Shown: positions 28,154-48,348 of the stretch, in pieces | Layout of the letters: each line of letters begins with the position of its first letter | How positions within the stretch are numbered: position 1 is the stretch's first letter | From: Pontiellaceae bacterium B12219 | Lineage (GTDB): Bacteria; Verrucomicrobiota; Kiritimatiellia; Kiritimatiellales; Pontiellaceae | Direction of reading: 5' to 3' | Assembly: GCA_029432795.1 (NCBI GenBank) | Contig: JARNMJ010000003.1 | Coordinates: 1-64,000 of the forward strand | DNA: 64,000 bases | The notes under the pieces: model-generated | What the model was told of the DNA's origin: nothing | Databases searched by the model: none | What the model saw: the letters and a program-made list of their open reading frames with translations, nothing else | Translations under genes and position numbers: made by a program

Positions 28154-28156
28154 TGT

Positions 28157-31617: not shown

Positions 31618-32649
31618 TCAGCTATTACTTGGAGGAATTCCGGCGCTATCAATTAAGCCCTGAGCCAGCTCAAGCGCATCCACGGGCCAGAAGAATTTCG
31701 GGCGAGGATGCCGGACGTTTGGATTCCCTGCCTCTGGGCGGCAGTCCTGCAGGCAGTCGAACCATTGGGCGGGAATTACGTCCCGACCCCACACAGCGCC
31801 TAACAGCGCCCCACAAATGGCTGCGTTCGTATCGGTATCGCCTCCGCCCATGACGGTGTCGACAACACCTTCTTCGAGGCTTGGTGCATGAAGCAGTTGG
31901 TACAGGGCATTTTGGAATGCGATCAGTACCCATCCCTGCTGGTTGACATAATCGGCAGGCGGATCAGTTTCGGCTTTTTCAATGGACTCCAGCAAAGCCG
32001 GGGCAACGGCCATATTAACGGCCCGCTTCCGAATGCTTTGGTACAGCTCCTGACGGTTACAACCGGATCGGATGGCGTGAGCAATGCCGACCGTAAAAAG
32101 TGCGTTCGCCTGTTGGCAGATTTCATTGGGATGGGTCAGCGCCGCATCCTGCATTGCCCATTCAGCCACTTGATCCAGTTCAAATCCGGCTCCGAAGATA
32201 CCAAGCGGACTGATCCGCATCATTGCGCCGTTGGCCTGACTGTCCGGGTTTGGATTTCCCCGCAGCCCAGAAGAAATGGTCATACCGCAGTCGAACGGAC
32301 CGGAGCTCAGCCAGTATTGATATTCTTTCCGAGCCGCCTCCGGATCATACGTCCCCGTCTTCACCAGCATACGGGCCAGAAGCAGAGCCATTTCCGAATC
32401 ATCAGTCGGTTGCCCCGCAATTGTATCCCACGTTCCGCCATCTTCCAGCTCCCGGACACCATCCGGATAGAGCGTCAGAATACCTGCGGGGGATTTGAAT
32501 TCGACCAAACTTCCCAACGCATCACCGGCCAGCTGGCCAAGCAGGCAGCCTTGCGCTCTGGAAAGGACACTCCGTTTATCGATGTTTTTTGAATCTTGCA
32601 TGACACACACTTCGCTCATGTGCCCGATTAAATCAAGCGATGTGTCCAT
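31618..32649 (-). CDS. ADP-ribosylglycohydrolase family protein
   Basis: A DraG/ARH-like hydrolase that removes ADP-ribose from proteins or small molecules. It shows the family motifs GCLLGQLAGDALGSLVEF at the N terminus, the Mg-binding PTDDSEMALL and the C-terminal GGDTDTNAAICGALLGA. No signal peptide. Several ATGs are possible in the first 50 nt and none has a clear ribosome site. It begins only 21 nt after the DprA-like gene, so it may be the last gene of the defence operon. There it could reverse an ADP-ribosyl mark, but a housekeeping role is equally possible. Confidence 0.85.
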   Translation of the reverse strand: MDTSLDLIGHMSEVCVMQDSKNIDKRSVLSRAQGCLLGQLAGDALGSLVEFKSPAGILTLYPDGVRELEDGGTWDTIAGQPTDDSEMALLLARMLVKTGTYDPEAARKEYQYWLSSGPFDCGMTISSGLRGNPNPDSQANGAMMRISPLGIFGAGFELDQVAEWAMQDAALTHPNEICQQANALFTVGIAHAIRSGCNRQELYQSIRKRAVNMAVAPALLESIEKAETDPPADYVNQQGWVLIAFQNALYQLLHAPSLEEGVVDTVMGGGDTDTNAAICGALLGAVWGRDVIPAQWFDCLQDCRPEAGNPNVRHPRPKFFWPVDALELAQGLIDSAGIPPSNS

Positions 32650-32670
32650 AGGCTAAGCGACAATTTAGGT

Positions 32671-33609
32671 TCAGTCAAAAAGCGTACCGGAGTCAGTATC
32701 CATATTCTTCCATGATTGAGCTTTGATGACTTCCTTTACCCCGTCCAACGAAGGGGTCCCATCTTTTCGCCCGCGAATGGGTTGACCGCCTTTAGTAATA
32801 AAGTGCGGATTGGCTTCTGCCGAAGGGCCAGGCGCGGCGTAATCAATTACAAATAACGGTCGCTTTCGTTTAAGCGTTTCTTCTCCAGCGGCAAAGGTTC
32901 CGCCAGTCATGCCGGATTCCACAAGAATCATCGCGTCGGAAAGTCCGATGATAGTGCTATTTCTTTTCATGGCATTTCGTCCACTCCATGTCAGGCGCGG
33001 GGGGAATTGAGATACAAATAGATGATTTTCAGAGGTCAGCAGATCAGCGATATCATTCTTAACTTGAAAACGAAGGATTCCTTCTACCAGAACAAAGACT
33101 GTGGTTCCGCCATGTTCCAGTGCGCTTTTATGAGCTGCCATGTCGACTCCATGGGCGTAGCCGCTGACAACATTCAACCGAACCTCCGCCAGTTGCGATG
33201 CGCAACGGGCGGTTATACCTAGCCCCTTTTCGGACGCTTTTCTCGATCCGCAGAACCCGGCTCCAGGAGCATTCAGAAGCGAACAATTTCCTTTTACGAA
33301 AAGTACAGCGGGGGCGTTGTTCTGTAGTATCGATAACAGCCGGGCGGGATAATTTTCTGAGTTCCACCGAACAAGAGTAATGTTGTTTAAATCGAGCTGA
33401 ATTGCAATTTCTTCCGCCTCCGTCTTAGCTTCCTTTATATTCTTTGCAACCTCGGGTTTTAGTTTTAACTCAGACGCCAAAGATATGGGGTTTTCGCATA
33501 ATGCGCAGGCAGCGTCGTCTCCATGGTTTCTCGCGTAGGTGAAAAATTTCCGGAGGGCGGCATCTCCGGCTCCCTTAGCATAAATAAACTGTAAAATCGC
33601 TACATTCAT
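32671..33609 (-). CDS. DprA/Smf-like Rossmann protein
   Basis: 312 residues with the DprA core: GSRKASEKG, the VVSGYAHGVDMAAHKSALEHGG stretch in which GxDxxAH is conserved, MKRNSTIIGLSDAMILVES (the R-N-x-I-I-x-G-L-S motif) and GGTFAAGE. The N-terminal third is helical and not clearly the usual HhH region; no C-terminal winged helix is evident. Its start overlaps the phosphoribosyltransferase-like gene by 4 nt. Chromosomal dprA serves DNA uptake. A copy inside a defence operon, coupled to a phosphoribosyltransferase, is more likely to bind nucleotides or DNA as part of an immune response. Confidence 0.8.
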   Translation of the reverse strand: MNVAILQFIYAKGAGDAALRKFFTYARNHGDDAACALCENPISLASELKLKPEVAKNIKEAKTEAEEIAIQLDLNNITLVRWNSENYPARLLSILQNNAPAVLFVKGNCSLLNAPGAGFCGSRKASEKGLGITARCASQLAEVRLNVVSGYAHGVDMAAHKSALEHGGTTVFVLVEGILRFQVKNDIADLLTSENHLFVSQFPPRLTWSGRNAMKRNSTIIGLSDAMILVESGMTGGTFAAGEETLKRKRPLFVIDYAAPGPSAEANPHFITKGGQPIRGRKDGTPSLDGVKEVIKAQSWKNMDTDSGTLFD

Positions 33610-34499
33610 GTGTTGTCACTATCTCTCATCGACTTAACCCCGACTAAGCCGAATACCCGCCTCGCCCCCGCTTCTTTAAGAAATTTCGCGTAAGCCCACA
33701 TCGAAATACCCGACTGGTACAGATCGTCGACAATCACAACATCCCTGTCTGCAAAAGAGACTGCGCCGCAGTCCACGTTTCCCGGAACGCCGTAGATTGA
33801 GCTCCAAGTCAATACTTTTTGCTGTACGTTTAGCCCTTTCATTTGAGGCTTGGAGACGCGCAATTTCGGCTCCATAAATTCCGCCTCTTTTCTTTGAGCC
33901 ACATGTCCGGCCAGAACTCTGGCGAATCCGCCAGAGTTTTCATTGGCAGGAATAGAGGAAACAACGGGCGTGGAATTCTCTCCAAATGAAAATTTTCTTA
34001 ATGGCAGAAGGTCGTAAACCGCAAGCAGTGCGTTTGACATAATCGCGCAGTAATGCTCGCCTTCGCTTTGCGAAAGATCACCTGCGTGATATTTAAGCTG
34101 ATATTCCGCTTCGCCTAATTCACTGCGGCCATGGATCTCTTTATCGTCAAAGATCGAGTTGAAATCGGCGGCGACGCAACACTCCAGCTCAGAGCCGGAA
34201 AAACAGTCACTCAGCTTAGAAGTCATCAGCCAAACAGATTGATTTCCAGCAAACTCAGCCCATCGCCTGATGCCCTCAAGATCAATCCCCGATGCTCTAT
34301 CTGAGGGGATCCAAATATTTTTTGTTCCACCGTTGCTGTTCTGCCATCCCTTTGGCGCGGAATTTAAAATCAGAGGAAACTGGTTACTGAACACCCCAAC
34401 CAGATCTCCCGATATAAAAATGTTGACGCTTCCATCGGGATTCTCATTTAGACGCATCCAAAACGCACTTCTTGAACGAGTATATTGAGTCGAAGCCAT
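33606..34499 (-). CDS. Phosphoribosyltransferase-like protein
   Basis: 297 residues. The C-terminal part has the PRPP-binding loop of type I phosphoribosyltransferases (DVVIVDDLYQSG, residues about 252-263) followed by the usual helix and GARRVFGLVG strand. The N-terminal 150 residues are not recognised. It starts 1 nt after the vsr stop and overlaps the DprA-like gene by 4 nt, so the pair is translationally coupled. It may modify a nucleotide or nucleic acid, but no substrate can be deduced. Confidence 0.75.
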   Translation of the reverse strand: MASTQYTRSRSAFWMRLNENPDGSVNIFISGDLVGVFSNQFPLILNSAPKGWQNSNGGTKNIWIPSDRASGIDLEGIRRWAEFAGNQSVWLMTSKLSDCFSGSELECCVAADFNSIFDDKEIHGRSELGEAEYQLKYHAGDLSQSEGEHYCAIMSNALLAVYDLLPLRKFSFGENSTPVVSSIPANENSGGFARVLAGHVAQRKEAEFMEPKLRVSKPQMKGLNVQQKVLTWSSIYGVPGNVDCGAVSFADRDVVIVDDLYQSGISMWAYAKFLKEAGARRVFGLVGVKSMRDSDNT

Positions 34500-34500
34500 G

Positions 34501-34998
34501 TTAAGTTGCCCCCTTTTCTGAATCGATACTTATCAACCCGCCCTCTGCGGTTGTTTCCGAGAAGGGAATATTGCCATGAAGCCAGTCGACGATGGAATCA
34601 GCAAAGTCTGACAACTCGTGGCGTCGAGTATGGAGAGAACACTCCCACACGATCAACACCCTCCAGCCCAGTTCCATCAACTCACGCCGGCTCCGTTTAT
34701 CTCGGGCGTGATTTGCTTCGACCTTTTCTGTCCAAAACTGAACATTTGATTTTGGAGTTCTTGCGAGTTTGCAGTTTGAATCATGGTGGCCATGCCAAAA
34801 GCATCCGTGCATAAAAATAACGGTTTTAAATCTCGGCAACGTTATGTCGGGAGACCCGGGCAACTTCTTATTATGGAGTCGAAAACGGAGTCCTTTCTTA
34901 TGTAAAATAGATCGCAACAGCTTCTCCGGCGTTGTGTCTTTAGATTTGACTGCGGCCATAACCCGGCTACGTTCCTGAGAAGTTATATTGTCGACCAT
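34501..34998 (-). CDS. vsr: Very-short-patch repair endonuclease Vsr
   Basis: 165 residues with the Vsr catalytic set at the same positions as in E. coli: Asp51 (PGSPDI), His64 and His69 (MHGCFWHGHH), plus the zinc-site Cys/His region and WECSL near the end. It nicks DNA at T:G mismatches that arise when 5-methylcytosine deaminates. This fits the C5-cytosine methyltransferase encoded in the same operon. Start and preceding stop share a TAATG junction. Confidence 0.93.
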   Translation of the reverse strand: MVDNITSQERSRVMAAVKSKDTTPEKLLRSILHKKGLRFRLHNKKLPGSPDITLPRFKTVIFMHGCFWHGHHDSNCKLARTPKSNVQFWTEKVEANHARDKRSRRELMELGWRVLIVWECSLHTRRHELSDFADSIVDWLHGNIPFSETTAEGGLISIDSEKGAT

Positions 34999-35576
34999 TA
35001 TCCCTCTCCGTATATGACCGCAGACGCTTGACAGATCTCAAGCGCTTTATCCAGTTGAGCGGCATCAGAGGGAGTCATTTTCTGGTGGCGGGCGAACAAC
35101 GCCAAAAGAATATGTATCTCCATGTGTTCTTGAGATGAAAACGGCTTAGAGGCGATATAAAGTAACGCTTTGCGAAGCGCGGTTTCCCACTTCAGGACTG
35201 TTCCGTCCGCAACCACGACAAAGCAGTTATTCTCCGGAGATTTGAACAGGGATACTTGGGATCTTTCATTGCGCTCCACGAAGTCTGCCGAGATACCCAC
35301 CTTTTTCTCGATGATAGATCTAAAATCATCTGGCCTTTCCTTCTGAGTTTTATCTTTTGAATAGCGGTTGAGTATCGCGTCTTTAATGTATGTACGCACT
35401 TCGGCTTTTCTCATGAATTGAGCGAGCCGTCCTCCTACCTGTTCGATCTGAACCAATTGGTCCAAAAATTTCCCATTATCTACCCGCGACCGGGCGAGAT
35501 AATCCACTTTATCTGCTTCGGCAAACACGAGATCCTTAACTTCGCGGGCCACAGTGTCAGGAACTTTATTCGCCAT
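34998..35576 (-). CDS. Unrecognised protein of the defence operon
   Basis: About 192 residues if translation starts at the ATG inside the helicase stop region (overlap 11 nt); a longer frame upstream lies within the helicase gene. The protein is soluble and mostly helical, with basic patches (KDKTQKERPDD, KWETALRKALLY) and an acidic N terminus. No motif of a known nuclease or ATPase is evident to me. Tight coupling between the helicase and vsr genes implies that it acts with them, perhaps as a specificity or adaptor subunit. Confidence 0.75.
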   Translation of the reverse strand: MANKVPDTVAREVKDLVFAEADKVDYLARSRVDNGKFLDQLVQIEQVGGRLAQFMRKAEVRTYIKDAILNRYSKDKTQKERPDDFRSIIEKKVGISADFVERNERSQVSLFKSPENNCFVVVADGTVLKWETALRKALLYIASKPFSSQEHMEIHILLALFARHQKMTPSDAAQLDKALEICQASAVIYGEG

Positions 35577-37251
35577 AATATGTCTCCACCTCGGGGAAAG
35601 CCAATTTTTCAGCGTCGTCACAGTCCTGCAGGCTGGCGACATCCAAGAGCCACGCATCCACAAATCGTTGAACATTGTCATTGCTGAATGTAACAACACC
35701 ATCTCGCAGATAAACGGTTTCGACCTCTCCGGCGTTTGGTTTTTCTTTGGCCTCCATGTTCAGATCCCTCACGGCGGCAATTCGCCGGATATCCGTTACA
35801 AAATCAAGTACCACCACTTTTTCTTTCCCCTTTGAAATTCTAAGTCCCCGACCCAATTGTTGCACAAAAATCCGGCGCGAATGGGTAGCTCTAAGAAATA
35901 CCAGAATATTAACATCTGGAACGTCGATACCCTCGTTCAATACATCCACGGCGGTTACCGCCTGAATTTTCCCTGATGAGAAGCTCAATAAAATCTGTCG
36001 TCGCTTGATTTTATCATCTACAGATAGGTTTGCTGCAGAAATCCCAGAAGATACAAGTTTGGCCGCGAAAGCGTCTGCGTGATTCTTCGAGGGAGAAAAA
36101 ACAGCGACACGGGGACTCGGAGTCTCTTTTATCACTTTCAGTAGGTGGTCGATCACTGCGTCATCACGTTGAGGAATAAACAACCTTTTATTCAGATCCC
36201 TTATGCTAAGAGATTTATGCGCAAGTTTAGGCACCTGTTCCCAATCAACGTTATCACACATCAAGCGATAATCCACTTTTGCGAGGAATCCCATGCGCAT
36301 GCCATCAATCAGGGATACTTTGGCCACAGGTTCTCCAAAGACTGATTCCACGGTAGCGCCGTCCCCCCGCCACGGCGTGGCAGTCATGCCGATCAACAGT
36401 TTTGGGGAAAGATGCTCTACACAAGATGAAAAAGCGTTCGCGAGCGCGTGATGCGCCTCATCAATAATGATCAAATCGAAGGCTGTTGGATCAATTCCTC
36501 CCAGATAGCCAAATAAAGTTTGATAAAGCCCGAAAGTAACTCCCTCCGAAGGCACGGGAGGTTCTCCGCCCATAAAAATTCTGGAAGGAATCTCTTTTGA
36601 CATTTGTCCCCAGAACGATTGCTGAAGCTGGGTGGCCAGATCGGTGGCGTGGCATAAAACCAGCACTTTTCGGTAACCCTGATGAAATAGTTTGTCAGCG
36701 ATGGTCGCAGCGATTACCGTTTTCCCCAGTCCTGTCGCCACGACAAATAACGCCTTTTGTCTTCCGGATTTGTGAGATTCAACAACGGATTGGATGATTT
36801 TAGATTGATAAGGACGAGGAACCCTACGCGCTTCACCATATGCGGGCCATTTGGAGAGAATATCTAAAAGGAACTTTCCATTCCATAGTCGCACATCGTA
36901 TCCCTGCGCTTTTAGTTCGTCCCTGCGAGTATATGCGGATCGAGTGAAATCACCGTTGGTTGCCACCACCACAATGCGAGCTTTATAATGCGATTGACCT
37001 ACAATAGCTTGATCAATAGCGCTTTTGCCTACATACGAACTGGAACTGACGGCTTTTACCTGAACCAGATAGGAGTCCGTTCCTCGAACCGCCAGCACAT
37101 CGGCTCCTTTGTCGCCAGTTTCCCCCACATATTGGATATCTCGCCAGCCGCAGTGCTGCAAAAGTCGCGATACCGCGAGTTCCAGTGCCCGCCAATCGCC
37201 TCCCTGCATAATCGGGTCAGTAAGGAACGTATTCTCACGGGGTTCGCTCAT
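35566..37251 (-). CDS. Mrr-type endonuclease fused to SF2 helicase
   Basis: 561 residues. The N terminus is a PD-(D/E)xK restriction domain of the Mrr type: Glu24, Asp51 (DKGADVLAV) and QVK at residues 64-66. Then a superfamily 2 helicase: Walker A VVATGLGKTV, DEAH (IIIDEAHHALA), TATPWRGD and the motif VI phrase QQLGRGLRISKGKEK. It should translocate on DNA and cut it, as the restriction arm of the operon. It overlaps the MORC-like gene by 4 nt and the next gene by 11 nt. Confidence 0.9.
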   Translation of the reverse strand: MSEPRENTFLTDPIMQGGDWRALELAVSRLLQHCGWRDIQYVGETGDKGADVLAVRGTDSYLVQVKAVSSSSYVGKSAIDQAIVGQSHYKARIVVVATNGDFTRSAYTRRDELKAQGYDVRLWNGKFLLDILSKWPAYGEARRVPRPYQSKIIQSVVESHKSGRQKALFVVATGLGKTVIAATIADKLFHQGYRKVLVLCHATDLATQLQQSFWGQMSKEIPSRIFMGGEPPVPSEGVTFGLYQTLFGYLGGIDPTAFDLIIIDEAHHALANAFSSCVEHLSPKLLIGMTATPWRGDGATVESVFGEPVAKVSLIDGMRMGFLAKVDYRLMCDNVDWEQVPKLAHKSLSIRDLNKRLFIPQRDDAVIDHLLKVIKETPSPRVAVFSPSKNHADAFAAKLVSSGISAANLSVDDKIKRRQILLSFSSGKIQAVTAVDVLNEGIDVPDVNILVFLRATHSRRIFVQQLGRGLRISKGKEKVVVLDFVTDIRRIAAVRDLNMEAKEKPNAGEVETVYLRDGVVTFSNDNVQRFVDAWLLDVASLQDCDDAEKLAFPEVETYYGE

Positions 37252-39626
37252 TGCATCAACCCCTCCAACAGAGTTAATGTGTTTGCGTATCTTAGGAGCT
37301 CTTGTTTTCCCTGATTTCTTCCTGCCTGTAACAGAATAATCACGTCCGACAAATAGGTGTTCACTTTTTCAAGGGAGTTTCTGCGTAGTCGTTCCCGCAT
37401 CGCGTCTCCCCCAATATTAAGATCTGAGTAAGGCTGATCAAATAGTTTCCCATCCATAAAATCAGCGGGGAATTCCAGCAGTAACCGTCGGAGCGTGCTG
37501 TTTGCGACAAACGAAAGTGTTTGAACTGCGGAATCCTCGAAATTTTGGTACGCTTCAAGCAAGTGGGGAGCCTCATCGAGCAATCGGGTGGCCAACTCCT
37601 CTTCCTCAGCTTCCACCGCTTGAATGGTCTCTTTAACTTTATTAAATCGGTGACCTAGTAGAGTCGGCAATCGCTCCTTAATTTCCGAAAGAATGGCTTC
37701 TGCTCTTTCCTGAAGAGCCTGTGTGTTTATTCGCTCTTCTCCTAGGTGATTGTCCACCAGCCCCAGAAAGGCTTCCTGAATTGATACGCCGGGTTCCCTT
37801 AACGAGAACTTTTCGGCCAATATTTGCAAGAGCATCTGTTTGGAGGAAATTGGATATTCCGCGAGTACGGGATGGGTCGGATCAAAGAAGAAATCAACCT
37901 CTATTCCATCTAAAAAAAGGTGACAAGGAATACGTTTCCCCTGAAGTTTTATCTGACCGCTTTTAATCCGCCATGCAGTTACCTCCATCCCCGGCGATGA
38001 GTTGTGAGTATAACTGCCTGATAGCGATTCATGTTTGTCCGAATCAGCGATGAGGCTGTCACGATCAGAAGTCTGAGGTGCCGGAACAACTGGTTCCGGG
38101 GATGACGAGGGAATGGTTGGCGTGACTGGTTGCGCAGGTGCCGGAACCTCTTCTCCCCCACCAGAGGGCAGGTAGGAATCAACATCATCCGACGGAGCGT
38201 TCCCAACGTTAACAGGAGTCAAGCCTCCCCCACCATCGCCTCGCTCTCTATCGGATTCTTGAGCGACTCGGTACCACTTTTCGTCTGTTTCATAATCAAG
38301 ATCGCCCGAGTGGAATCTGGCCGCAAACTCTTTAGCCATGGAGTTTGGAATTGCCAAATTCTTGGTGCCAGGATCTGTTCTGCGATAGGCGTTAACCAGC
38401 TTGCCCAGCGGGGAGTCGTTATCTCCGTCGTATTGAAGAAGCTTCCGTTGTTTGGGGAGAATCGGTCCCGCACCACGAATCGCCTCAACGGTCAACCTCC
38501 AAGCCCGGTCCGTCGTATCAAAACCATTTTTCTGATAAGTCGGAATCAGATAGTCGACATGCAGTTCCCCGACGATTCGTCCACCGACGGTGGATCCAAG
38601 TTCGACGGGATATTCAGTAACAGTTGTCCCTGTATCGGGGTTATCATAAGAAAAAAGTGATTTATCCGAGACTAATATTTTTCGCCCGTTCCTAACGAAA
38701 TCAACACCGAATTCAGACGGGTGCGCAAACCGCTGGATTCCAATCCACCCTTTGAGTCTGCGTGCCCTGCGAACAATGTGATCCGGTAATGCCTCTCCAT
38801 TACTCATGGCTATATCCAACTCAACAGCCTCGTCTCCCGACAAGTAGCGATTGCGCAAAGAGTCAAAGTAAGACTCCCCAAGATCCCGATTGATCTGTTG
38901 TACCGCCTCGACCTTGATTCCTTTTCTGGTAATAAAACGAGAGCTGTTCCACACGCAGTGAGGACGAGGGCATAGTTGCTTCCCCTGAACATAAATCGAC
39001 AATTTTCCGCGACTCAGAATGGGGGTATAGATCGTTTCGAGCTGCCTTTTAATCGCGCTCTCCTTACGCTTGATCTCTCCAATCACCCCATCTTTTAGTT
39101 TTCGAACTATGATTTTTGTTCCGGATTCAGAGGGATCATTTTTGGGAACACGTACCACCGGGGCGGAAAAAGTCTGATCCTTAATCAGCTGTTCGAAGCT
39201 GATTCTGATACCAACCCACGCATCTCCTTCGGGAGTAGCGGACAAAAACGTGGTCTCGTCGCCTAGACGGGCGGTTGAAATATTGAATCCCATGCCGAAC
39301 AGGCCAAGGTTATGAATGGGATCATTGCTCGAATATCCTGCTTTGGCCGCTTTCTGCAGAACTTCAAGCTCCATGCCAAGGCCATTGTCCTGAATGACGA
39401 TTTCGCGATCAGGAGCCGCTACGGAATCGGTGGACCAGTGAATATCAACACGGGGTGATTCGATAACCTTTCCGTGACTTTTCGCCTCATTGAAGGCATC
39501 AAGAGAATTGTCAGTCAATTCCGCCAGACATTGCCATGCCGCGAACGGAATATCCCCCAACGTTCGTAAAATTCTTGGAGTTGGCGTGATATCCACAATT
39601 TCGGAAATGTTCGATTCGATTATCAT
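37248..39626 (-). CDS. MORC-like GHKL ATPase
   Basis: 792 residues. The N-terminal GHKL ATPase domain has the N box (E36, N40, D43 in ELTDNSLDA), G1 DNGLGM at 80-85 and G2 GLFGMGF at 108-114. An S5-like domain follows. A Pro-rich linker (about 510-560) leads to a C-terminal helical half with coiled-coil pattern. Such MORC/MutL-related ATPases are known in restriction-modification gene clusters, where they are thought to clamp or loop DNA. Stop/start overlaps tie it to the methyltransferase and helicase genes. Confidence 0.88.
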   Translation of the reverse strand: MIIESNISEIVDITPTPRILRTLGDIPFAAWQCLAELTDNSLDAFNEAKSHGKVIESPRVDIHWSTDSVAAPDREIVIQDNGLGMELEVLQKAAKAGYSSNDPIHNLGLFGMGFNISTARLGDETTFLSATPEGDAWVGIRISFEQLIKDQTFSAPVVRVPKNDPSESGTKIIVRKLKDGVIGEIKRKESAIKRQLETIYTPILSRGKLSIYVQGKQLCPRPHCVWNSSRFITRKGIKVEAVQQINRDLGESYFDSLRNRYLSGDEAVELDIAMSNGEALPDHIVRRARRLKGWIGIQRFAHPSEFGVDFVRNGRKILVSDKSLFSYDNPDTGTTVTEYPVELGSTVGGRIVGELHVDYLIPTYQKNGFDTTDRAWRLTVEAIRGAGPILPKQRKLLQYDGDNDSPLGKLVNAYRRTDPGTKNLAIPNSMAKEFAARFHSGDLDYETDEKWYRVAQESDRERGDGGGGLTPVNVGNAPSDDVDSYLPSGGGEEVPAPAQPVTPTIPSSSPEPVVPAPQTSDRDSLIADSDKHESLSGSYTHNSSPGMEVTAWRIKSGQIKLQGKRIPCHLFLDGIEVDFFFDPTHPVLAEYPISSKQMLLQILAEKFSLREPGVSIQEAFLGLVDNHLGEERINTQALQERAEAILSEIKERLPTLLGHRFNKVKETIQAVEAEEEELATRLLDEAPHLLEAYQNFEDSAVQTLSFVANSTLRRLLLEFPADFMDGKLFDQPYSDLNIGGDAMRERLRRNSLEKVNTYLSDVIILLQAGRNQGKQELLRYANTLTLLEGLMQ

Positions 39627-40654
39627 GGTGTGTTCTCCAGAAAGTTCATTATTGATTTCGCAACTTTATTTCCGAGCAAGGGGGGAACGGCATTGCCGAT
39701 TTGCATCACATTGGCTGTAGCTGAATGTGGAAACTCAAAATTATCGGGAAACGTTTGTAATCTAGCGCATTCACGAACCGTAAGCCTTCGCTCAAGCGCA
39801 TAGTGAAATTGAACCCTGGATTTCGCGTTGGCTCGTATGGTGTAGGACGGTTGATCCGCAGGATTTCTCTCATCGCCTTGTCCATTGCCATTTTTCGCCC
39901 GTGATGCCTTGAAATACTGAGATTGATTCGCGATGGATTCATCCACAACATTCTCTAAATCCTCCAGCGCCCATTGTGTGGTCCGGTAGGTGTTTTCAGA
40001 GTGTGATTTTCTCGGTTTTGTCGGAAAACCCGCAATATCATCCCGCACCGCGATAATGAAAAGTCGGGTTCTTCGCTGCGGAACACCGTAGTCGGGCGCG
40101 AAAAGCGTCCACACTTCCACCTTGTATCCCACTCGGGAGAGATCTTCTCTGATCTTTTCCAGTACCTCGCCCTTTTCCATATTCGCCAGCCCGGGGACAT
40201 TTTCTCCGACCACAACTTTGGGCGAATGAATTTCCATATATTGTATAAGCGACTGATAGAGCCGCCCACGGGTTGAGGACAGTCCATGCCTTGGTCCGCA
40301 GGTGGCGAAATCCTGACAAGGAAAGCCTCCAATCAAGACATCAGCCTTTGGCACCTCATGGGCTGAGTAATTTGACAGATCCCGGACTTCGGCGTGATCA
40401 GAGATATTCTGTTTGTAGGTTTCAATACACTTTTCATCATAATCGTAAGCGGCGAGCATTTCGATGGGTTGTTTCGGAATACGGACTCCTTTGTAAGTGA
40501 ATCCTCCAACAAATCCCAAATCCAAACCACCGCAACCACAAAAAAAGGAGACGACGGATGTCGTTTTCCTTTTCACTCCGTTCTTCCGACGCAAAGTGCC
40601 TCGGGGTTTACCCCTTGTCGCTCTTATAATTCTCAAATGCTTAATACTTGTCAT
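39623..40654 (-). CDS. DNA (cytosine-5) methyltransferase
   Basis: 343 residues with the C5-MTase motifs in order: I FFCGCGGLDLG, IV GGFPCQDFATCG with the catalytic Cys, VI GENVPGL, VIII QRRTRLFI, IX RECARLQTFPD and X QIGNAVPPLL. The target-recognition region lies between motifs VIII and IX. The start used overlaps the end of the small HTH gene. It should mark host DNA against the operon's own nuclease. The recognised sequence cannot be read from the protein; the adjacent vsr suggests a Dcm-like context. Confidence 0.93.
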   Translation of the reverse strand: MTSIKHLRIIRATRGKPRGTLRRKNGVKRKTTSVVSFFCGCGGLDLGFVGGFTYKGVRIPKQPIEMLAAYDYDEKCIETYKQNISDHAEVRDLSNYSAHEVPKADVLIGGFPCQDFATCGPRHGLSSTRGRLYQSLIQYMEIHSPKVVVGENVPGLANMEKGEVLEKIREDLSRVGYKVEVWTLFAPDYGVPQRRTRLFIIAVRDDIAGFPTKPRKSHSENTYRTTQWALEDLENVVDESIANQSQYFKASRAKNGNGQGDERNPADQPSYTIRANAKSRVQFHYALERRLTVRECARLQTFPDNFEFPHSATANVMQIGNAVPPLLGNKVAKSIMNFLENTP

Positions 40655-40850
40655 TAGTTCCACTCTTCTCGTCCGCTCCACCGGCCTCTATCCACGCATC
40701 CACTTGGCTTACCTTGAATTTCCAAAGACGGCCCATCCGGTGTGCGGGCATGTCATGCTTATCGATCCACTTGTAAACAGTATCTTTGCTGACACCAAGA
40801 TGTTGGCATATTTCATCGGCGGAGAACCATCGATCTTCTGTTTCTGTCAT
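40641..40850 (-). CDS. Small excisionase-type HTH protein
   Basis: About 69 residues, almost entirely a MerR-like/excisionase HTH (WFSADEICQHLGVSKDTVYKWI then MGRLWKFKVSQVDAWI). It is first in the defence operon and overlaps the methyltransferase gene. The likely role is autoregulation of the operon, so that the methyltransferase appears before the nuclease, rather than excision. The start chosen omits a 10-residue extension that lacks a ribosome site. Confidence 0.85.
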   Translation of the reverse strand: MTETEDRWFSADEICQHLGVSKDTVYKWIDKHDMPAHRMGRLWKFKVSQVDAWIEAGGADEKSGTNDKY

Positions 40851-40973
40851 CCTATAAATCCTTATTTTACTGGAGCGCATTTATGCTATTCAGCGTAACG
40901 ATCTGTAAACAATCGGCACAATATATCAAAAATTTTGTGTTCATAAAGCGATTTGAGCCGATTTCGGCTAATC

Positions 40974-41486
40974 TCACCCGTTCTCAATGACACTACAATC
41001 CCAATATCCATTGTAAATCCGCATCTCTGCATGACCCAACAATATGTCTGAACCGAGATAGATCCAGCAGGTGTGTAAACTGCTTTTGCTTTTTACCACC
41101 GAAAGAACCCGGTCATACATGCTCCTACCGTGAGGGTTGAATCCTTCCAGTCGGTCGATGGGCGGTAAATTAATGCCGGGTTCGTTAAAGGTCATCAGTT
41201 CGCCATGAATGAGATCCCAATCGCCGTCCGGACGTTGCATGGCGTTTACCGGTAATTCGATGTTGTTCTGTATTTGAGTATCGGTCAATGGATCGGCGGT
41301 GCCGGTCGCGAGAATGTTTTCCGTCGGAATGACCAGAGCGGGGAATCCTGCGGGCAGATGATACAGCCTTCCCCAAGTGGTGGCGGGGTCTATGCTGACG
41401 GCCTGCGAGCAGAACCGGTCATGGTTCCAGTACCCACGCTTGAGGGTTCCGTAAACAAATATGCGTAGCTGTTGGGTTGTATTCAT
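40974..41486 (-). CDS. Gamma-glutamylcyclotransferase/AIG2-like protein
   Basis: 170 residues with the family YGTLKRG loop (12-18) and the HGEL strand that carries the catalytic Glu. GGAG is 7 nt before the ATG, which overlaps the previous stop by 4 nt. Enzymes of this fold cleave gamma-glutamyl-amine bonds. In an operon with an amidoligase it could remove or recycle the product formed by that enzyme. Confidence 0.85.
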   Translation of the reverse strand: MNTTQQLRIFVYGTLKRGYWNHDRFCSQAVSIDPATTWGRLYHLPAGFPALVIPTENILATGTADPLTDTQIQNNIELPVNAMQRPDGDWDLIHGELMTFNEPGINLPPIDRLEGFNPHGRSMYDRVLSVVKSKSSLHTCWIYLGSDILLGHAEMRIYNGYWDCSVIENG

Positions 41487-42280
41487 GCGATCACTCCTTG
41501 AGGTAATGTTCCTTTTCGTTCCTGACAAATGAATTCGAAGGGCTGCTGCTCCCACTCCTGCAGATTTTCATGATTGAAGCTCAGCATGGTGAGTGGCGGA
41601 ATTTCCAGATCCCGCCAGCCTCGCGGGTCGTCGAGCGCGGAATCTATGAACTCGGCTTCGGAGGCGTATAGAACCGCCCGACACTTGCGGTTGTAACGCA
41701 ACGTGAGCGGTTTGTTTCCTTTGAGTACGGTAATGACCCCGGGATTGAACCGTGAGGCCAACACGGCGCTCATTTGCCCGCGACAAAGGCGCAGGGCTTT
41801 GCGGAAGCCTACATCGTTCCACCCACGCTCTGAATCAAAGCAGTCGGCCAACCGGAAAATCAGCTCGCTGTCAACCTCAGCATAGCGTGGCAGTTGGAAT
41901 CGGCAGAATAGCTGGTCGGCGTTGTAGATGGTGCCGTTGTGCGTTCCGATGATGCTTCCCGCCCGAATGGGATGGTTATTGCGGCTGTTGGACTCACTGC
42001 CCCGAGTGCGCCATCGGGTATGTCCCATGAGAATGGTGGTGCGATTATTCACCTCGTCTAACACTTCGCCGAAAGTTGGATCACGAACGATGCGATGCGC
42101 CCGGCATGGTCGCTTGAAGAGCTGGAAGTCGCCGTTGGTTTGAAGTAGAGCCACGCCGGAGGCATGCGGTCCGCGCCGTTCGGAGCTGAGCAACATGCGA
42201 TGGAATACCTCGTTCAAATATTCGCGCTCGGCAATCCGGCGGCGCTTCTTCCCAAAGATGATGCCTACTTGTCCGCACAT
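41483..42280 (-). CDS. Class II glutamine amidotransferase-like protein
   Basis: 265 residues. Cys2 after Met1 (MCGQVGI) would be the N-terminal nucleophile once Met is removed. The conserved GHTRW (residues about 92-96) and GTHNGTI motifs of Ntn glutaminase domains are present. No synthase domain is attached, so it should supply ammonia or act on a gamma-glutamyl substrate with a partner. It overlaps the gene before it by 16 nt. Confidence 0.88.
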   Translation of the reverse strand: MCGQVGIIFGKKRRRIAEREYLNEVFHRMLLSSERRGPHASGVALLQTNGDFQLFKRPCRAHRIVRDPTFGEVLDEVNNRTTILMGHTRWRTRGSESNSRNNHPIRAGSIIGTHNGTIYNADQLFCRFQLPRYAEVDSELIFRLADCFDSERGWNDVGFRKALRLCRGQMSAVLASRFNPGVITVLKGNKPLTLRYNRKCRAVLYASEAEFIDSALDDPRGWRDLEIPPLTMLSFNHENLQEWEQQPFEFICQERKGTLPQGVIA

Positions 42281-42786
42281 GATGTGTCGCTCCCATTGCT
42301 GTTTGGGGGAAAGAAGATTTTCGGCTCCCCGATGATGAACTCCACGTATTCCACAAGATGGCCCGTGATCCAGTGGGCCACGTCGGGGTAGCCCATCTCG
42401 CGAATCAGATCGATGGCCACAGGAATGTCGAACATGTTGGTGCGTCCGGAATCGCGCACCGTCTCTACGGCCTCCTGAAACTGCTCGGGATACGGCGACT
42501 CGATGGTGTCCTCATCCGGCAGGAATTCCACCCAGCCGTGTTGCGCCATGCGGGTGAAAAATTCAGCGGCGGCCTGTTCAGGATCGCCCGGCAGAGGCTT
42601 CGCGCCGTCGCCTTCGATTTTGGCAAGTACCCGGAGCTGATATTCCCTCAGCGACAGGTCGGTGGTGAACGGCGTTTGATGGTGCATCTGTTCGGCGACC
42701 TCGAGGCAGGTCGGAGCCTGCACGACTCTGCCGTCGTCGATAATCGGCTTCCCGTCGAAAGCCATGGAATGGATCTTTATCTTCAT
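42265..42786 (-). CDS. Protein with C-terminal DUF5049-like domain
   Basis: 173 residues, soluble. The C-terminal part (VRDSGRTNMFDIPVAIDLIREMGY) fits the DUF5049 pattern known from phage and plasmid proteins. The N-terminal part is not recognised. It lies between the amidoligase and glutaminase genes, with a 14-nt gap to the first and an overlap with the second, so it probably acts in the same pathway or supplies its substrate. Confidence 0.65.
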   Translation of the reverse strand: MKIKIHSMAFDGKPIIDDGRVVQAPTCLEVAEQMHHQTPFTTDLSLREYQLRVLAKIEGDGAKPLPGDPEQAAAEFFTRMAQHGWVEFLPDEDTIESPYPEQFQEAVETVRDSGRTNMFDIPVAIDLIREMGYPDVAHWITGHLVEYVEFIIGEPKIFFPPNSNGSDTSCADK

Positions 42787-42800
42787 GGTGTTTCCTCCTG

Positions 42801-43742
42801 TTAAACAGAGAGGCCGGATGTTGATCCGGCCTCTGTGGGGTGGGTTGTGGTTTCTGTGGGCTGTGGTCGCCCACGTTTGAAAGCGGCATCGCCGGGCATG
42901 TTTTTCATCAGGTGCAGGCGGGCGGTTTTAAATTCGTCACCGATCAGGCCGAGGTGGAGCAGGAAGACGCGAAAGTCATATTTCGCACTCTGAATATTGA
43001 AATCCCGTTTTCGGCTGGATGCGGATCGGGCGTTGAGAGCCTTGGCGGCGATGCCCAAGCAAAACTGCAGGTAGGCTTTGATCTTTCCGGCGTGGAGCGT
43101 GGACTCGAACCAGCGGAATTCAACTGTGCCGCGATACCAAACATTGTGGAGATTGAGGCCTCGATAGCGCGTTCGGTCATAGTGCTGTGGCTGGCTGTTG
43201 TGGTAGCCGTACCAGATGCGGTTTAGTTCCTCTTTGGTGGTTGGCCGGTGCTGTTCAATACTGCGGATCAGGTCGTCGCAGACCGGACGGGTGTATTGGC
43301 TGAGGCGATTGGAGCTGATGCCGAGCGCGTGAAGAATCAATGGTTCTTGCTTGTAGACCATCTTGGCGAGGTTGCCCAGTTTTCGGCCATCAAACGGTTC
43401 CGCATCGATATGAATGTGGATGCCGCACTGCGTATTCACCCGACCGCCAGCTCGGCGGACGGCCCGAACCACCTCCTGAAACTGAGGAATTTCGTCGTAG
43501 GTCAGAACCGGACTGACCAGCTCCGCCCGCAGGTGGCTGGGAACACCGGAAAGGGATGCATCGTTGACGATTTTCCATTTACGGCCCCGCAGGTCTTTCA
43601 CTTCCCATGGGTCGTAGCAGGATGGATAACCGACGTGTCGGACGGTGCCGCCGACCACCGAGTGTACTGCCCGGGCGATCTGCTCGCGGGTTCGTTTTAC
43701 GGTTTCAATCTCAATCCCGAATCTAAGGTCTCTCAAATCCAT
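42801..43742 (-). CDS. Amidoligase (GS-like ATP-dependent peptide ligase)
   Basis: About 313 residues. GGAGG lies 7 nt before the ATG used; the longer frame would run through a stem upstream. The phrase FGIEIET (Glu11, Glu13) gives the ATP/metal glutamates; [10 protein letters not shown] and [10 protein letters not shown] match later catalytic strands of Amidoligase_2. It should join an amine to a carboxyl group with ATP. In known clusters such ligases appear with glutaminase and AIG2-like genes and are proposed to modify peptides or proteins. The substrate is unknown. Confidence 0.85.
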
Positions 43743-43772
43743 ACTGTGCCTCCGCTCGTGTTTCTTCTCGTT

Positions 43773-43794
43773 GCGGGGCAATCTGTTACCCCGC
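43773..43794. promoter_or_regulatory. Palindrome in the leader of the amidoligase operon
   Basis: GCGGGG and CCCCGC (6-bp arms, 10-nt loop) lie about 30 nt before the amidoligase start. It may be an operator or an mRNA stem that controls the operon. No T run follows. Confidence 0.4.
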
Positions 43795-43849
43795 TCTTTA
43801 TGGTGTGCATACACGCTCTGTGTCGGAGGTATAGCAAGTGAAAGAACAC

Positions 43850-43895
43850 GAAAAAGAACCCGCTAACACATTGGGAAAGAATATGTTAGCGGGTT
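43850..43895 (-). terminator. Terminator of the tail operon
   Basis: AACCCGCTAACA / TGTTAGCGGGTT (12-bp perfect arms) is followed on the minus strand by CTTTTTC. It lies 5 nt after the stop of the last tail-operon gene and separates it from the amidoligase operon. Confidence 0.85.
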
Positions 43896-43900
43896 GGGCG

Positions 43901-44149
43901 CTACTTTTCTTTCGATAGCAGCTCGTTATGGATGGCGATGTTGCGGGATTCATCCTGCTTCAGCTTTTCGAGAAAAGCGGAGCAGGCTTCGGCTTCTTCA
44001 AACGGGAAGTCCAGTTCAGCCTCTAATCGCTGCAGCCGATTGTGCAGGTTCTCGATCAGATTGAAGGAGTGATCCCGGACCAAACCTTCCCGTTTTTCCT
44101 GTGGAGACGGGATGAACTCGGTCATCCCGCCCCGGCGTTGAACAATCAT
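43901..44149 (-). CDS. Small coiled-coil protein, last gene of tail operon
   Basis: 82 residues with heptad-like pattern (FNLIENLHNRLQRLEAELDF). GGAGG lies 8 nt before the start. No family recognised. Being last in the tail operon it may be a small structural or chaperone protein for the fibre. Confidence 0.6.
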   Translation of the reverse strand: MIVQRRGGMTEFIPSPQEKREGLVRDHSFNLIENLHNRLQRLEAELDFPFEEAEACSAFLEKLKQDESRNIAIHNELLSKEK

Positions 44150-44162
44150 CTCGCGCCCTCCA

Positions 44163-47100
44163 TTAGCTCAATGTTGCGCCAAGGGTGTGAATCCTCGGAT
44201 AAGCCAACGCGGATCCAGTCAGCTCTGCCATATAGCGAACTTTAGTTCCCGCTGGATCGGTGAAGGTTCTGATCAGCGTGTATTCCGTCCAGTTTTCATC
44301 GATAGGCCGAGTATCGTCGATGGCCATAGCTTCCCATGTTTCGCCGCCATCATTGGAGGAGAACCACAGAACACTGGTGCCGCTTGGGATATCCATTTGG
44401 GCATACACCTTCGTCGACTCCACTCCCTGCGTCAGTTCGTTCTCGCGGGTCAGGTAAACACCGGTCGTTTTGTTGAGATAACCGATCAGGTTAACATCGC
44501 GGAAGTTGAGCGCTGGCGTATCATTGTTCATGCCGGAGCTGAATCGAATCCGAACCAACACGCTGTCTGTCAGGTTGGGCAACCGTTCCTCTTCTGCCGG
44601 AACAACCGCGTCCCACGTCTGGCCTCCGTCGGTGGAATATTCCCACACAAGGTTGGTGCCTTCCGGGATGGCGGAATATTCATCAATATTCAGGTCGGAG
44701 AACTGCACACCGTTGATCGGCTGAAACTGAATGGAGCCATCATTCTCGAACTCATAACCATAGAGCTTCAGCGTGAGGTCGGAACCGTTAAGTGGAGTCC
44801 AGGTTTCGGCATTGGAACTTTCCAACAGCACACCTTCCGCATAGCTCTGGCGTGTGATAATGCCCGAACGACCGGTTTTCCCGAGGGTAGCGGTCCGCAC
44901 CTTGTAGTTCGTGCTGTTGGTCAGGAGAACGACCGCATAGCTGGTATTAGCTTCCGCATAGAACGGATCATCGAAGGCGATTTTGGTTTCGCCACCGAGA
45001 TTGATTTCCGACGGCGCAATCACCTTTTCGGCAAAGATGGTGTCGTTCGGCAATCCCGTGGTAACGCCGCGAATCTGTACCGTAACCGGAATAGACGGGT
45101 CACGCTCCGTGAACTGAATGCCTATCGCCGACAACACCCGGTTTTCCGTGAAGCTGAAGGTCTGCGCCAACGGATCGCGCCGCACAAAGATCGTGCGGGT
45201 TCGCCAGACCGTCCGCACCACCGGAACACGGACAATACGGGTGATGATGTTGGTTTGAATGAAACGCTGAATACGGGTGATCACCAGCGGATCGTTCACC
45301 TGCAGGCTGGTACGTGCGGTGTACTGGCCATCCGTCATTTCCACGATCCGGTTGCCGTTTCGGGTTTCCGTCGGAATCGTGAACGATGCGGATACGCGCC
45401 CGGCATCATCGCTGGTCAGGTTGCTGGCGACGATCCTTCCGTCGCACCGCAGAGCAATTCCGTTTTCGCTCGGCGTAAAGTTGATACCCGTCACCGCAAC
45501 GCCGGTCTGGCCGCGACGACCGAGGTTCGGCGTGACCTGCAGCATGGCGGGCGGTTTGTCGAATACCGCATACGGGTTAATGTTGCGCTCCTCCGACCAA
45601 TCGCTCTGATCCAGCAGCACTTCTTCCGTTCCGGGCAGGAGCGCAAGGCTGCCAAAAAATTCGGCATTGCTGTTGCCTTCATCCACTTCAAGCGGGATGG
45701 ATACCGCCGTTCGATCCGGAGAGGCGAACTTTTCAAGGCCATTTACGCGGGCATCCCAGTCGGCGTGATAAATATCCGACTGCGCGGTATTGGAAAAGTC
45801 GTCCGAGTAGATTCCCTTTTTCGACTGCGCATCACGATTCTGCAGCTCATTGTTCATCTGATACTGCGCATCGTTGTATTTCAGATCCTCCACATCTTTG
45901 ATGATTTCGTGGATCTGATCCATGGTGATACGGGTCAGGCCGAAGTTGCGAATGGTCATGATTGTCGAATTCGGCGGACAGTCGATGCTGCACAATCCGA
46001 GCGTGTTCTCCGGAACAATCGGCAGTTTCGGGAAGTCCGCCGGTGCGCCTTCGAGGCGTTTGATTTCACGGCTGGTGGCATAGATGATGTCTTTGCGCCC
46101 GAGATAGTAGTCGTAATCAACACTGCAGTTCGATCCGTTGATCGGTTGCTCGCCTAATGCGCCGCGCCCAAAGTTGACGACGTTGAGGTTACCCAGTTCA
46201 ATCTGAGAGGAAGACATGGAAACCGATGCCGTATTGGCCGACGGAGGATTAACGCCAGTGGATTCATCAACACCGTCATCGATGTAGGTAACCGCTTCGC
46301 TTCCCAGTTCTTTGATTCGTTCAAAACTGGTGCGCGAACCATTGATCGTGGCCCGATAGACTCTGTAGCCGCTGGCTCCATTCACCGGAAGCCATGACAG
46401 GCGGTTCAGCTCACCGGCCTCCGTCATCCGGGAAAGTACGCGCTCGGCATCAAAGGCCGTTTCGCCGGAGCCATCGAATACGGTCACAATGTAATGATAC
46501 GTTCCCGCCGCCGGATGAGCATCCTGGCCGAACCAGCCCCCGTCCACATAATCTTCGCCTTTGATCATCTGCTTGGTGTAGGTCCAGCGCACGGTGTAGG
46601 TGGTACCGATAGCCGGTTCATTACCGGAACCGATCCAGTCGACCTGATTGCCGGACTGCTGCCAATCCACACCTTCCTGAAAGATGGTTGCACCTTGGCT
46701 GACTTCCAGAATATCAACCACCGGATTGGGATCGAGCAGGTCTTCACCTCCGCCAACCGAACCACGGGTCACATTGGCGGTCATCTCCACGATGGCTTCC
46801 ACCTGCGTCGTCTCTTTGAGCGGGGTGGAGTTTACCGGATACTGCCGCTGGCTGATGTTGTAGGTTTTTTGTTCACCGCGCACCGATTTGATGGCGACCG
46901 ATTTCGGAACCGGCGTGGAGGTCGGCAGATCTCGCTGATGCCGGAAACCCTGAATATAGGCGCGGCCCGCGTTGGTAATTACCTCCACATCATTTTCATC
47001 CAATGCACCGAGGAAACTGTCGAACCCGTCGACCAAATAGCTTCCGGCCTGATCGAAGGTACGTTCCGCCAGATTTTGCAGGAGCGAGTTCAATCCTTCA

Positions 47101-47723
47101 GCAGCGGCAAAAGAGAGCTGGTCTTCGGTGATGGAAGAAACGGTAATCCGGCTGCCGGGCAGCGTGCCCAGTAGATCCTGAAGGAAGAGGTTTGATTTTT
47201 CCTGCACAGTAGCGGTCACATCGCCCGTGGCACGGTCAAATTTATAGATCGGCACCACCTTCCGTTCGGTAACATTGTTAGGCAGTGTCTGGCCGGATGT
47301 GTCAGTGGTCTTCAGGGCCAGCACCCACTTTTCGCGCTCGGCTGTCGGTTCGCCAGTCGCCGGATTAATCAGAGCGGCATCCTGTGTGTAGCCATAGTTA
47401 TACTTGAGCAGTTCGGCATAAACGTAATCTGATCCGTCCATGGTGGCCGGATCGTAGGCCAGCGTGGCTCCATTGATTGCTTCCACATGGCCGTCGATAT
47501 AGATCATGCCCTGAGTGAGAATCAGCTCGTTGGCCTGCACAGTCACATCCAGCCCGCTCAGAATTGAACCCTCCTTAAAGAGGATATCGGCAATCTTGCG
47601 GCGCTCGAGGTTGATCAGCTCTTGTTGTTCATTCAGTTCCGAATCGAGCAGATCCCGGTCCTGATGGTAGCGAATTCGCTTATAATTTTTAGTGGGGTCG
47701 AAAGTTTCTCTTGAAATACTCAT
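44163..47723 (-). CDS. Large phage structural protein, DUF4815-like
   Basis: 1186 residues. The N terminus (RETFDPTKNYKRIRYHQDRD, then LDSELNEQQELI) matches the opening of DUF4815 proteins found among tail genes. The middle has an Ig/fibronectin-like stretch and an IPT-type repeat (near residues 735-810). The C-terminal part is beta-rich. It should form a long tail appendage or baseplate spike arm. A 656-residue open frame on the opposite strand here is a shadow. Confidence 0.8.
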   Translation of the reverse strand: MSISRETFDPTKNYKRIRYHQDRDLLDSELNEQQELINLERRKIADILFKEGSILSGLDVTVQANELILTQGMIYIDGHVEAINGATLAYDPATMDGSDYVYAELLKYNYGYTQDAALINPATGEPTAEREKWVLALKTTDTSGQTLPNNVTERKVVPIYKFDRATGDVTATVQEKSNLFLQDLLGTLPGSRITVSSITEDQLSFAAAEGLNSLLQNLAERTFDQAGSYLVDGFDSFLGALDENDVEVITNAGRAYIQGFRHQRDLPTSTPVPKSVAIKSVRGEQKTYNISQRQYPVNSTPLKETTQVEAIVEMTANVTRGSVGGGEDLLDPNPVVDILEVSQGATIFQEGVDWQQSGNQVDWIGSGNEPAIGTTYTVRWTYTKQMIKGEDYVDGGWFGQDAHPAAGTYHYIVTVFDGSGETAFDAERVLSRMTEAGELNRLSWLPVNGASGYRVYRATINGSRTSFERIKELGSEAVTYIDDGVDESTGVNPPSANTASVSMSSSQIELGNLNVVNFGRGALGEQPINGSNCSVDYDYYLGRKDIIYATSREIKRLEGAPADFPKLPIVPENTLGLCSIDCPPNSTIMTIRNFGLTRITMDQIHEIIKDVEDLKYNDAQYQMNNELQNRDAQSKKGIYSDDFSNTAQSDIYHADWDARVNGLEKFASPDRTAVSIPLEVDEGNSNAEFFGSLALLPGTEEVLLDQSDWSEERNINPYAVFDKPPAMLQVTPNLGRRGQTGVAVTGINFTPSENGIALRCDGRIVASNLTSDDAGRVSASFTIPTETRNGNRIVEMTDGQYTARTSLQVNDPLVITRIQRFIQTNIITRIVRVPVVRTVWRTRTIFVRRDPLAQTFSFTENRVLSAIGIQFTERDPSIPVTVQIRGVTTGLPNDTIFAEKVIAPSEINLGGETKIAFDDPFYAEANTSYAVVLLTNSTNYKVRTATLGKTGRSGIITRQSYAEGVLLESSNAETWTPLNGSDLTLKLYGYEFENDGSIQFQPINGVQFSDLNIDEYSAIPEGTNLVWEYSTDGGQTWDAVVPAEEERLPNLTDSVLVRIRFSSGMNNDTPALNFRDVNLIGYLNKTTGVYLTRENELTQGVESTKVYAQMDIPSGTSVLWFSSNDGGETWEAMAIDDTRPIDENWTEYTLIRTFTDPAGTKVRYMAELTGSALAYPRIHTLGATLS

Positions 47724-47804
47724 GGTCGCGTTACTCCAGTTAATCGTTAATAGTTGTTGGTTGTTAGGCCTGTTATCAGATCGAATTTAAACGGGCCTAT
47801 GGCC

Positions 47805-48338: not shown

Positions 48339-48348
48339 GGTTTTCTCC

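Follow-up and report, generated by a model that had tools for sequence, protein, structure and literature searches.

A prophage cargo slot in Pontiellaceae bacterium B12219 likely to combine a MORC-type restriction-modification set with a ShosTA/PsyrTA-like candidate toxin-antitoxin pair

Introduction

Operons combining a MORC ATPase with SF2 helicases that carry fused nucleases, with mostly cytosine-specific methylases and with Vsr were described in 2008 (Iyer, Abhiman and Aravind; excerpts of PMC2292703), so that the restriction-modification (R-M) part of the locus presented here is already known in kind. According to parts of PMC9122126, DprA homologues are the antitoxins of shosTA, syrTA and rqlHI, and a pair of DprA and phosphoribosyltransferase (PRTase) from a hotspot of P2-like prophages protects against T7 and lambda. 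The principle of a toxin-antitoxin within an R-M operon is likewise known, since an excerpt of PMC12255303 reports DarTG2, active against phages, in a type I R-M operon whose first gene encodes a small repressor. Here we analysed a window of 64,000 nucleotides, positions 1-64,000 of contig JARNMJ010000003.1 (GCA_029432795.1) of Pontiellaceae bacterium B12219 (genome G000), which contains an eight-gene cassette made up of an R-M set and a pair of DprA-like and phosphoribosyltransferase-like (PRT) genes.

Taken together, the locus is likely to be a prophage defence cargo slot that holds a MORC-type R-M module and a ShosTA/PsyrTA-like toxin-antitoxin as separable modules of one probable transcription unit. 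What can be read directly from the genomes is the gene content, the linkage, the existence of each module in places where its partner is missing, and the exchange of genes at the prophage locus. The two stacked modules are of known kinds, PRT being their poorly assigned member.

Gene content and organisation of the cassette

The cassette consists of eight intact open frames on the minus strand (40850 to 32671) in the order HTH, C5-methyltransferase, MORC-type GHKL ATPase, SF2-Mrr, X, Vsr, PRT and DprA. The first gene (40641..40850) encodes an HTH_17 protein of 69 aa (Pfam HTH_17, 3.7e-16) and overlaps by 14 nt with the gene of the C5-cytosine DNA methyltransferase (39623..40654; PF00145, DNA_methylase, 1.3e-66), which starts from the ATG at 40654 according to the checked start and stop codons and whose translation contains PCQ and ENV motifs recognised by eye. 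Overlaps of 4 nt each connect the methyltransferase gene to that of the 792-aa MORC-type GHKL ATPase (37248..39626; HATPase_c_3, 2.7e-9) and the latter to the gene of the SF2 helicase with an N-terminal Mrr nuclease domain (35566..37251; Mrr_cat 4.7e-16, ResIII 8e-31, Helicase_C 3.1e-14). Protein X (34998..35576, 192 aa), a frequent partner of MORC sets with no match in Pfam, begins at the ATG at 35576 in an overlap of 11 nt and is followed, with an overlap of 1 nt, by the Vsr endonuclease (34501..34998; PF03852, 3.2e-30). A 1-nt gap separates Vsr from PRT, a candidate toxin of 297 aa (33606..34499; Pribosyltran, 2.3e-4, sub-threshold), which in turn shares 4 nt with the gene of the DprA-like candidate antitoxin of 312 aa (32671..33609; PF02481, DNA_processg_A, 4.9e-42).

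All eight genes are probably one transcription unit; the co-transcription itself we infer. No promoter stands out upstream of PRT, a scan having given 9 sites versus 11.6 expected from shuffles, and since it found no more sites than in shuffled sequence PRT may still possess a promoter of its own.

The first-pass annotation, which was made from the letters of the window, had described a tight chaining of these eight genes, and the overlaps and the single 1-nt gap bear this out. It had furthermore let the operon start at 40880 and placed an ADP-ribosylglycohydrolase (ARH) gene 21 nt behind DprA. The likely HTH start is the ATG at 40850 because homologous HTHs align from there, and the distance of 21 nt derives from the longest frame of the ARH gene; its start is probably 32619 and the gap to DprA probably 51 nt, because the homologous frame of the related genome G004 starts at the equivalent base.

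The MORC-type restriction-modification module

Genes 2-6 are a MORC-type R-M set with predicted restriction and modification activity. The ATPase is of the MORC kind in a broad sense that takes in the paraMORC families of PMC2292703, MORC3 and MORC4 being the sole PDB matches of the GHKL profile among solved structures at E<=0.01, and it is neighboured by an SF2 helicase-nuclease, a methyltransferase and Vsr. This assignment, which had been proposed in the first-pass annotation, is confirmed by the domains and by 98 related MORC loci, namely the best 80 of 188 relatives from a scan of species genomes with the GHKL alignment and 18 loci from viral contigs. The 80 genomic loci contained the methyltransferase in 79 cases, SF2-Mrr in 78, Vsr in 64, X in 38 and HTH in 4, while neither PRT nor DprA was detected in any of them (0/80 each; tblastn, E<=1e-3) or in the viral loci (0/18 each). 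Seven DprA and PRTase queries likewise matched none of the 98 loci (E<=0.05), and 82 of these loci have at least 2 kb of sequence 3' of the last R-M gene. The full order HTH-MTase-GHKL-SF2-X-Vsr (MTase, methyltransferase) is present in one of the 18 viral loci (L016). Among five plasmid MORC loci examined, four pair the ATPase with an SF2-Mrr protein and a methyltransferase, partly together with other nucleases, and the fifth (L008) has the ATPase alone; no PRT or DprA match was obtained in these five.

Protein X is weakly conserved; seven X sequences used as queries detected it in 83 of the 98 loci. Its AF2 model is of high quality (pLDDT 95.7), a Foldseek search gave no match at E<=0.001, and VIA-align placed EndoMS first with Z 7.4, the domains of Shedu, MspJI, PaqCI and FokI following lower among unrelated rows. 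The C-terminal half of the modelled X thus appears loosely similar to PD-(D/E)XK nucleases, which is a lead only because a Z below 8 is weak and no clear catalytic motif is visible.

Based on the protein families, the first module, comprising HTH, methyltransferase, MORC ATPase, SF2-Mrr, X and Vsr, would act on unmethylated DNA. The methyltransferase is predicted to mark self DNA with 5-methylcytosine, and unmarked DNA would be attacked by the MORC ATPase, the helicase-nuclease and X. Vsr may repair T:G mismatches arising from deaminated 5-methylcytosine or serve as an extra nuclease.

Separability of the R-M set and the PRT-DprA pair

The pair can be separated from the R-M set, each occurring elsewhere without the other. 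When samples of 387 genomes from the phylum were searched, matches to PRT came only from G000 and G025 (E<=1e-5) and those to the MORC ATPase from G000, G074 and G125 (E<=1e-40), so that the two meet in G000 only. G025, a sister species of the same genus, has the same pair at the same locus behind different defence genes: PRT, DprA and ARH are 87%, 86% and 82% identical and keep their order, and genes encoding a GATase and a GGACT protein are located on the other side of the slot as in G000. Upstream of PRT, G025 encodes an HTH, two PDC-M23 proteins (PADLOC), the larger of which also resembles the Hachiman helicase HamB, a UvrD helicase, DarT, a fusion of ADP-ribosylglycohydrolase and glyoxalase, and an HNH protein. 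DNA homology between both genomes covers 31670-34515 of the window at 82.6% and 41107-42361 at 83.7%, between which the HTH alone is related (69%). On the side of the pair, the homology block sets in 16 nt ahead of the PRT start codon and includes a putative ribosome-binding site, read by eye.

The first-pass annotation had concluded from the tight coupling that the DprA-like and phosphoribosyltransferase-like proteins belong to the same mechanism as the R-M proteins. In such a single eight-gene mechanism DprA and PRT would sense or amplify restriction products, e.g. single-stranded ends left by the helicase-nuclease, and would be needed for restriction. Several observations weigh for it and thereby against two separable modules. 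The coupling by overlaps and a 1-nt gap is what a single mechanism would predict, both modules are equal in GC content (0.483), which a joint arrival would explain too, and DprA-like proteins bind single-stranded DNA according to parts of PMC9122126. Furthermore, other DprA-PRTase pairs reside within methylation-based operons, namely type I R-M (including three of 17 PsyrA loci of the phylum) and BREX, which makes a link between these kinds of modules possible. However, the pair is absent from all 98 MORC sets and stands behind another cassette in G025, and a mechanism uniting all eight genes, rejected as the leading account on this co-occurrence, appears quite improbable. The eight genes, whose joint recurrence the first-pass annotation had proposed as a check, were found together in G000 only, both among the MORC loci and in the genome samples.

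It also counts against our interpretation that the Vsr-PRT junction is known from one assembly only and that its pattern was found in none of the viral contigs. An artefact joining two copies of the prophage could account for the single occurrence, and G025 has more than one copy of the prophage region, so that such regions can be mixed up. Against this, PRT, GATase and DUF4815 each give a single match in G000, the contig measures 168 kb, and the open frames retain their stop and start codons at the junction; a misassembly is thus highly improbable.

The combination of MORC-type R-M and PRT-DprA is seen in one genome only, its parts being of known kinds. No paper on this exact gene set was found among the top-ranked literature results, with subscription journals thinly covered, in agreement with the first-pass annotation, whose author knew of no such description.

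The PRT-DprA pair

PRT and DprA resemble toxin-antitoxins of the ShosTA/PsyrTA kind, as judged from their sequences, and form a candidate pair of this type. PRT shows a Pribosyltran match near its C-terminus (20.9 bits versus a cut-off of 26.3) and holds the stretch VVIVDDLYQSG, read by eye as a PRPP-type motif. In PADLOC it matches PsyrT (4.6e-5) and ShosT (1e-4) in the C-terminal part only, about 170-180 residues at the N-terminus being without family assignment. Among solved structures the best match was a ribose-phosphate pyrophosphokinase (0.0094), and the 17 phage records obtained at E 0.3-0.7 are mostly annotated as this enzyme as well. An AlphaFold model built from two sequences was poor (pLDDT 41.8). 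Given this model and the weak, partial match to ShosT and PsyrT, PRT is a candidate toxin only, which has to be set against a reading of the pair as a toxin-antitoxin. No PRT was found in plasmids, and two-sequence alignments of PRT and DprA detected no relatives in viral contigs, a weak test in which the patterns fell at the N-termini.

DprA matches PsyrA (4.4e-55) and ShosA (4.1e-42) in PADLOC. A profile (A6) built from the DprA proteins of the window and of G025, three PsyrA proteins and one other DprA scored the ordinary DprA 3uqz (4.2e-36) above the solved ShosA antitoxin 9vzo (8.6e-30). Both PADLOC and 9vzo thus place the protein close to ShosA and PsyrA.

With regard to the related systems, the toxic part of RqlH is its PRTase domain according to an excerpt of PMC4670107, and parts of the review PMC12593503 describe ShosT as a phosphoribosyltransferase and pyrophosphatase disturbing purine metabolism and T7 Gp0.7 as the trigger of ShosTA. 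By analogy, the R-M module would act first, and PRT would be freed or activated when a phage survives; no longer restrained by DprA, it might disturb the nucleotide pool or DNA and stop the infected cell in an abortive manner. The role of the second module as a back-up is predicted from the families. The first-pass annotation had considered the pair as a possible second layer of defence, which remains plausible, without naming its known relatives ShosTA and PsyrTA.

The prophage cargo slot and its fillings

The host element is a temperate contractile-tailed prophage, and the cassette occupies a slot in it between a GGACT (AIG2-like) gene (40974..41486, minus strand; PF06094, 4.9e-16) and the ARH gene on the prophage side (31618..32619, minus strand; PF03747, 2.2e-60). 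The genes in 41483..64000 on the same strand are those of a GATase, an amidoligase, DUF4815, baseplate, tail and tape measure, and the prophage continues beyond the window with sheath, major head, portal, terminase and integrase genes. This location was absent from the first-pass annotation. The GGACT gene is 69-74% identical in G004, G024 and both prophage regions of G025, and DNA homology on its side of the slot begins at 41052-41115. Attachment-site repeats of at least 15 nt were not detected between 26000-32700 and 80000-104000 of the contig.

The ARH gene was considered as a ninth gene of the operon and was rejected: in G004 and on contig C284 of G025 it is found at the same position with neither PRT nor DprA beside it, and at 0.556 its GC content comes closer to that of the phage part (0.538) than to that of the cassette. 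The GC content alone proves little, because the flank left of the slot (23712-31600; 0.489) is close to the cassette. Being common to fillings with and without PRT-DprA, ARH was therefore assigned to the prophage side.

Differing defence genes occur at this one fixed place between conserved prophage genes, as in a prophage defence hotspot. On either side of the slot, over 23.7-90 kb, G024 and G000 share 93-96% identity, but G024 lacks 32086-41114. Instead of the cassette it contains 1.08 kb (L176:9563-10640) with an HTH and residues 1-189 of the 265 residues of PDC-M23A; the fragment is 94.7% identical to the protein of G025 and runs straight into ARH from residue 179. The filling of G024 is a decayed, Hachiman-like set. 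In G004 about 18 kb lie between GGACT and ARH (L174:4338-18702, L175:3752-5827), encoding a serine recombinase, ParB-like proteins, an AAA ATPase with subtilase, a type I R-M (hsdM-Fic-hsdS-hsdR) and GmrSD; no PRT was detected in this filling. The second region of G025, read from three contigs (C245, C284 and C198) whose order is inferred, encodes hsdM-hsdS-DarT-macro-hsdR (L177:1282-9506, contig C245) and a Cap4-like/CTD7 protein, and another G025 contig has a DUF3732 protein before a second ARH. Four of the five fillings of the genus hence contain a toxin-type enzyme (PRT; DarT and PRT; DarT-macro; Fic) in addition to DNA-targeting genes, the fifth being the decayed one.

The HTH of the window is 62-67% identical to the HTHs of the four other fillings and 40-46% identical to five HTHs preceding MORC sets elsewhere. 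Its greater similarity to the former suggests a local regulator common to the fillings. The HTH gene of those other fillings follows GGACT immediately in G024 and in the two G025 regions, and in G004 it stands just ahead of hsdM within the filling.

The constancy of the pair in G000 and G025, whose upstream genes differ, would also be expected if PRT-DprA were an addiction or guard device of the slot that punishes loss or inhibition of the upstream restriction system and thereby keeps cassette and prophage. The joining of DNA-targeting genes with a toxin-type enzyme in all fillings that are not decayed is in line with this. Since the fillings of G004 and of the second G025 region do without the pair, however, and the G024 prophage persists after losing its filling, which may or may not have included the pair, we consider this role unlikely. 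A related and slightly less probable proposal is that of a plug-in sensor-effector, translationally coupled to and watching whichever DNA-targeting system precedes it, an architecture which would be shared with PsyrTA in type I R-M and BREX operons; the block of the pair would begin with a ribosome-binding site of its own, which here falls within the final codons of the gene before it, and upstream modules would therefore be exchangeable while the guard stays. PRT-DprA may guard the upstream module or merely share slot and transcript with it, as the sequence fits either.

Several further features of the region were recorded. Beside the tail genes the prophage has a cluster of amidoligase, DUF5049, glutamine amidotransferase and AIG2-like genes (40974-43814). 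ARH (31618-32619) lies at the edge of the slot where relatives hold DarT, and one may speculate that it counters ADP-ribosylation of phage DNA. A 777-aa DNA methyltransferase (phrog_27806) encoded in the same prophage at L185:8009-10342 (contig C207, 72009-74342) is a possible self-protection gene. Left of the slot, 25580-31652 encodes an outer-membrane efflux protein, a sigma-54 response regulator, a histidine kinase and a CsoR-like repressor, perhaps a metal-response cluster, and the segments 27031-27163 and 27408-27540, each of which also matches the counterpart of the other in G024 at 77%, probably represent a duplication.

Toxin-antitoxins joined to restriction systems elsewhere

A DprA match was present in 210 plasmid records, six of which were examined. 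RecQ helicase and DprA were located between hsdS and hsdR in an E. coli plasmid, inside a BREX operon in an Acinetobacter record, recQ and dprA also being named in a BREX figure legend in the accessible part of PMC10117892, and on their own in a Nostoc plasmid. Two of the remaining records contain DprA genes lacking such an annotated partner, and one is unannotated there. Within the phylum a RecQ-PRTase partner accompanies PsyrA at all 17 strong loci examined; at three of these the pair is situated between hsdS and hsdR, and at a fourth a PglX-like match follows. Three of the 17 loci are contigs of 4-9 kb, which limits the view of nesting, and a partial match (G245:C321) was left out. RecQ-helicase/DprA pairs inside type I R-M and BREX operons were noted at L109:1211-11290, L110:1027-12722, L146, L151 and L160. 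The 3.5-kb pair was found in 54 records of 53 E. coli genomes (at least 99% identity), and the complete 10-kb R-M unit likewise in 54 records of 53 genomes; these records are one unit spread by descent or transfer and not 54 events.

Significance

The locus is a clear natural example of a composite prophage defence, in which a conserved slot receives exchangeable DNA-targeting modules and a toxin-type partner is found in the four non-decayed fillings. A comparison of G024, where the cassette is absent, with G025, where other genes precede the same pair, is readily available for asking whether toxin-antitoxins act as guards of restriction systems or only accompany them. The present case is furthermore a warning that a tight overlap of genes is no proof of a single mechanism.

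Comparison with known systems

The R-M module shares with the operons described in the excerpts of PMC2292703 the MORC/GHKL ATPase, the SF2 helicase with a nuclease domain, the cytosine methyltransferase and Vsr. It differs in that an HTH leads and PRT-DprA trails, and a term search of the accessible text of that paper found neither DprA nor phosphoribosyl.

Like ShosTA, PsyrTA and RqlHI, as far as the cited excerpts describe them, the second module places a DprA homologue beside a phosphoribosyltransferase, as does the pair known from the hotspot of P2-like prophages. PsyrT and RqlH carry a RecQ helicase, whereas PRT has no helicase match in Pfam and thus lacks the RecQ fusion, so that the pair is not PsyrTA proper. 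DprA is devoid of the C-terminal extension seen in the three aligned PsyrA proteins, and the similarity of PRT to ShosT is weak, the 170-180 N-terminal residues remaining unmatched.

The RptR-RMS-DarTG-M48 island of E. coli, in the portion of PMC12255303 available, likewise unites a small first-gene regulator, an R-M operon and a toxin-antitoxin, RptR and the HTH of the window being likened as small first-gene regulators by description. In that island DarTG2 lies between hsdS and hsdR of a type I R-M, whereas here the R-M is of the MORC type and PRT-DprA stands at the 3' end, after Vsr as the last R-M gene and not between R-M genes. The type I R-M on contig C245 of G025, with DarT and a macro-domain partner between hsdS and hsdR, resembles the published island. 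With the hotspots of P2-like prophages and P4 satellites, according to the parts of PMC9122126, the slot has in common a fixed place in a prophage and exchangeable defence genes, one of them being DprA with a PRTase. Unlike those hotspots it is flanked by GGACT and ARH genes, and the likeness lies in the arrangement of the slot.

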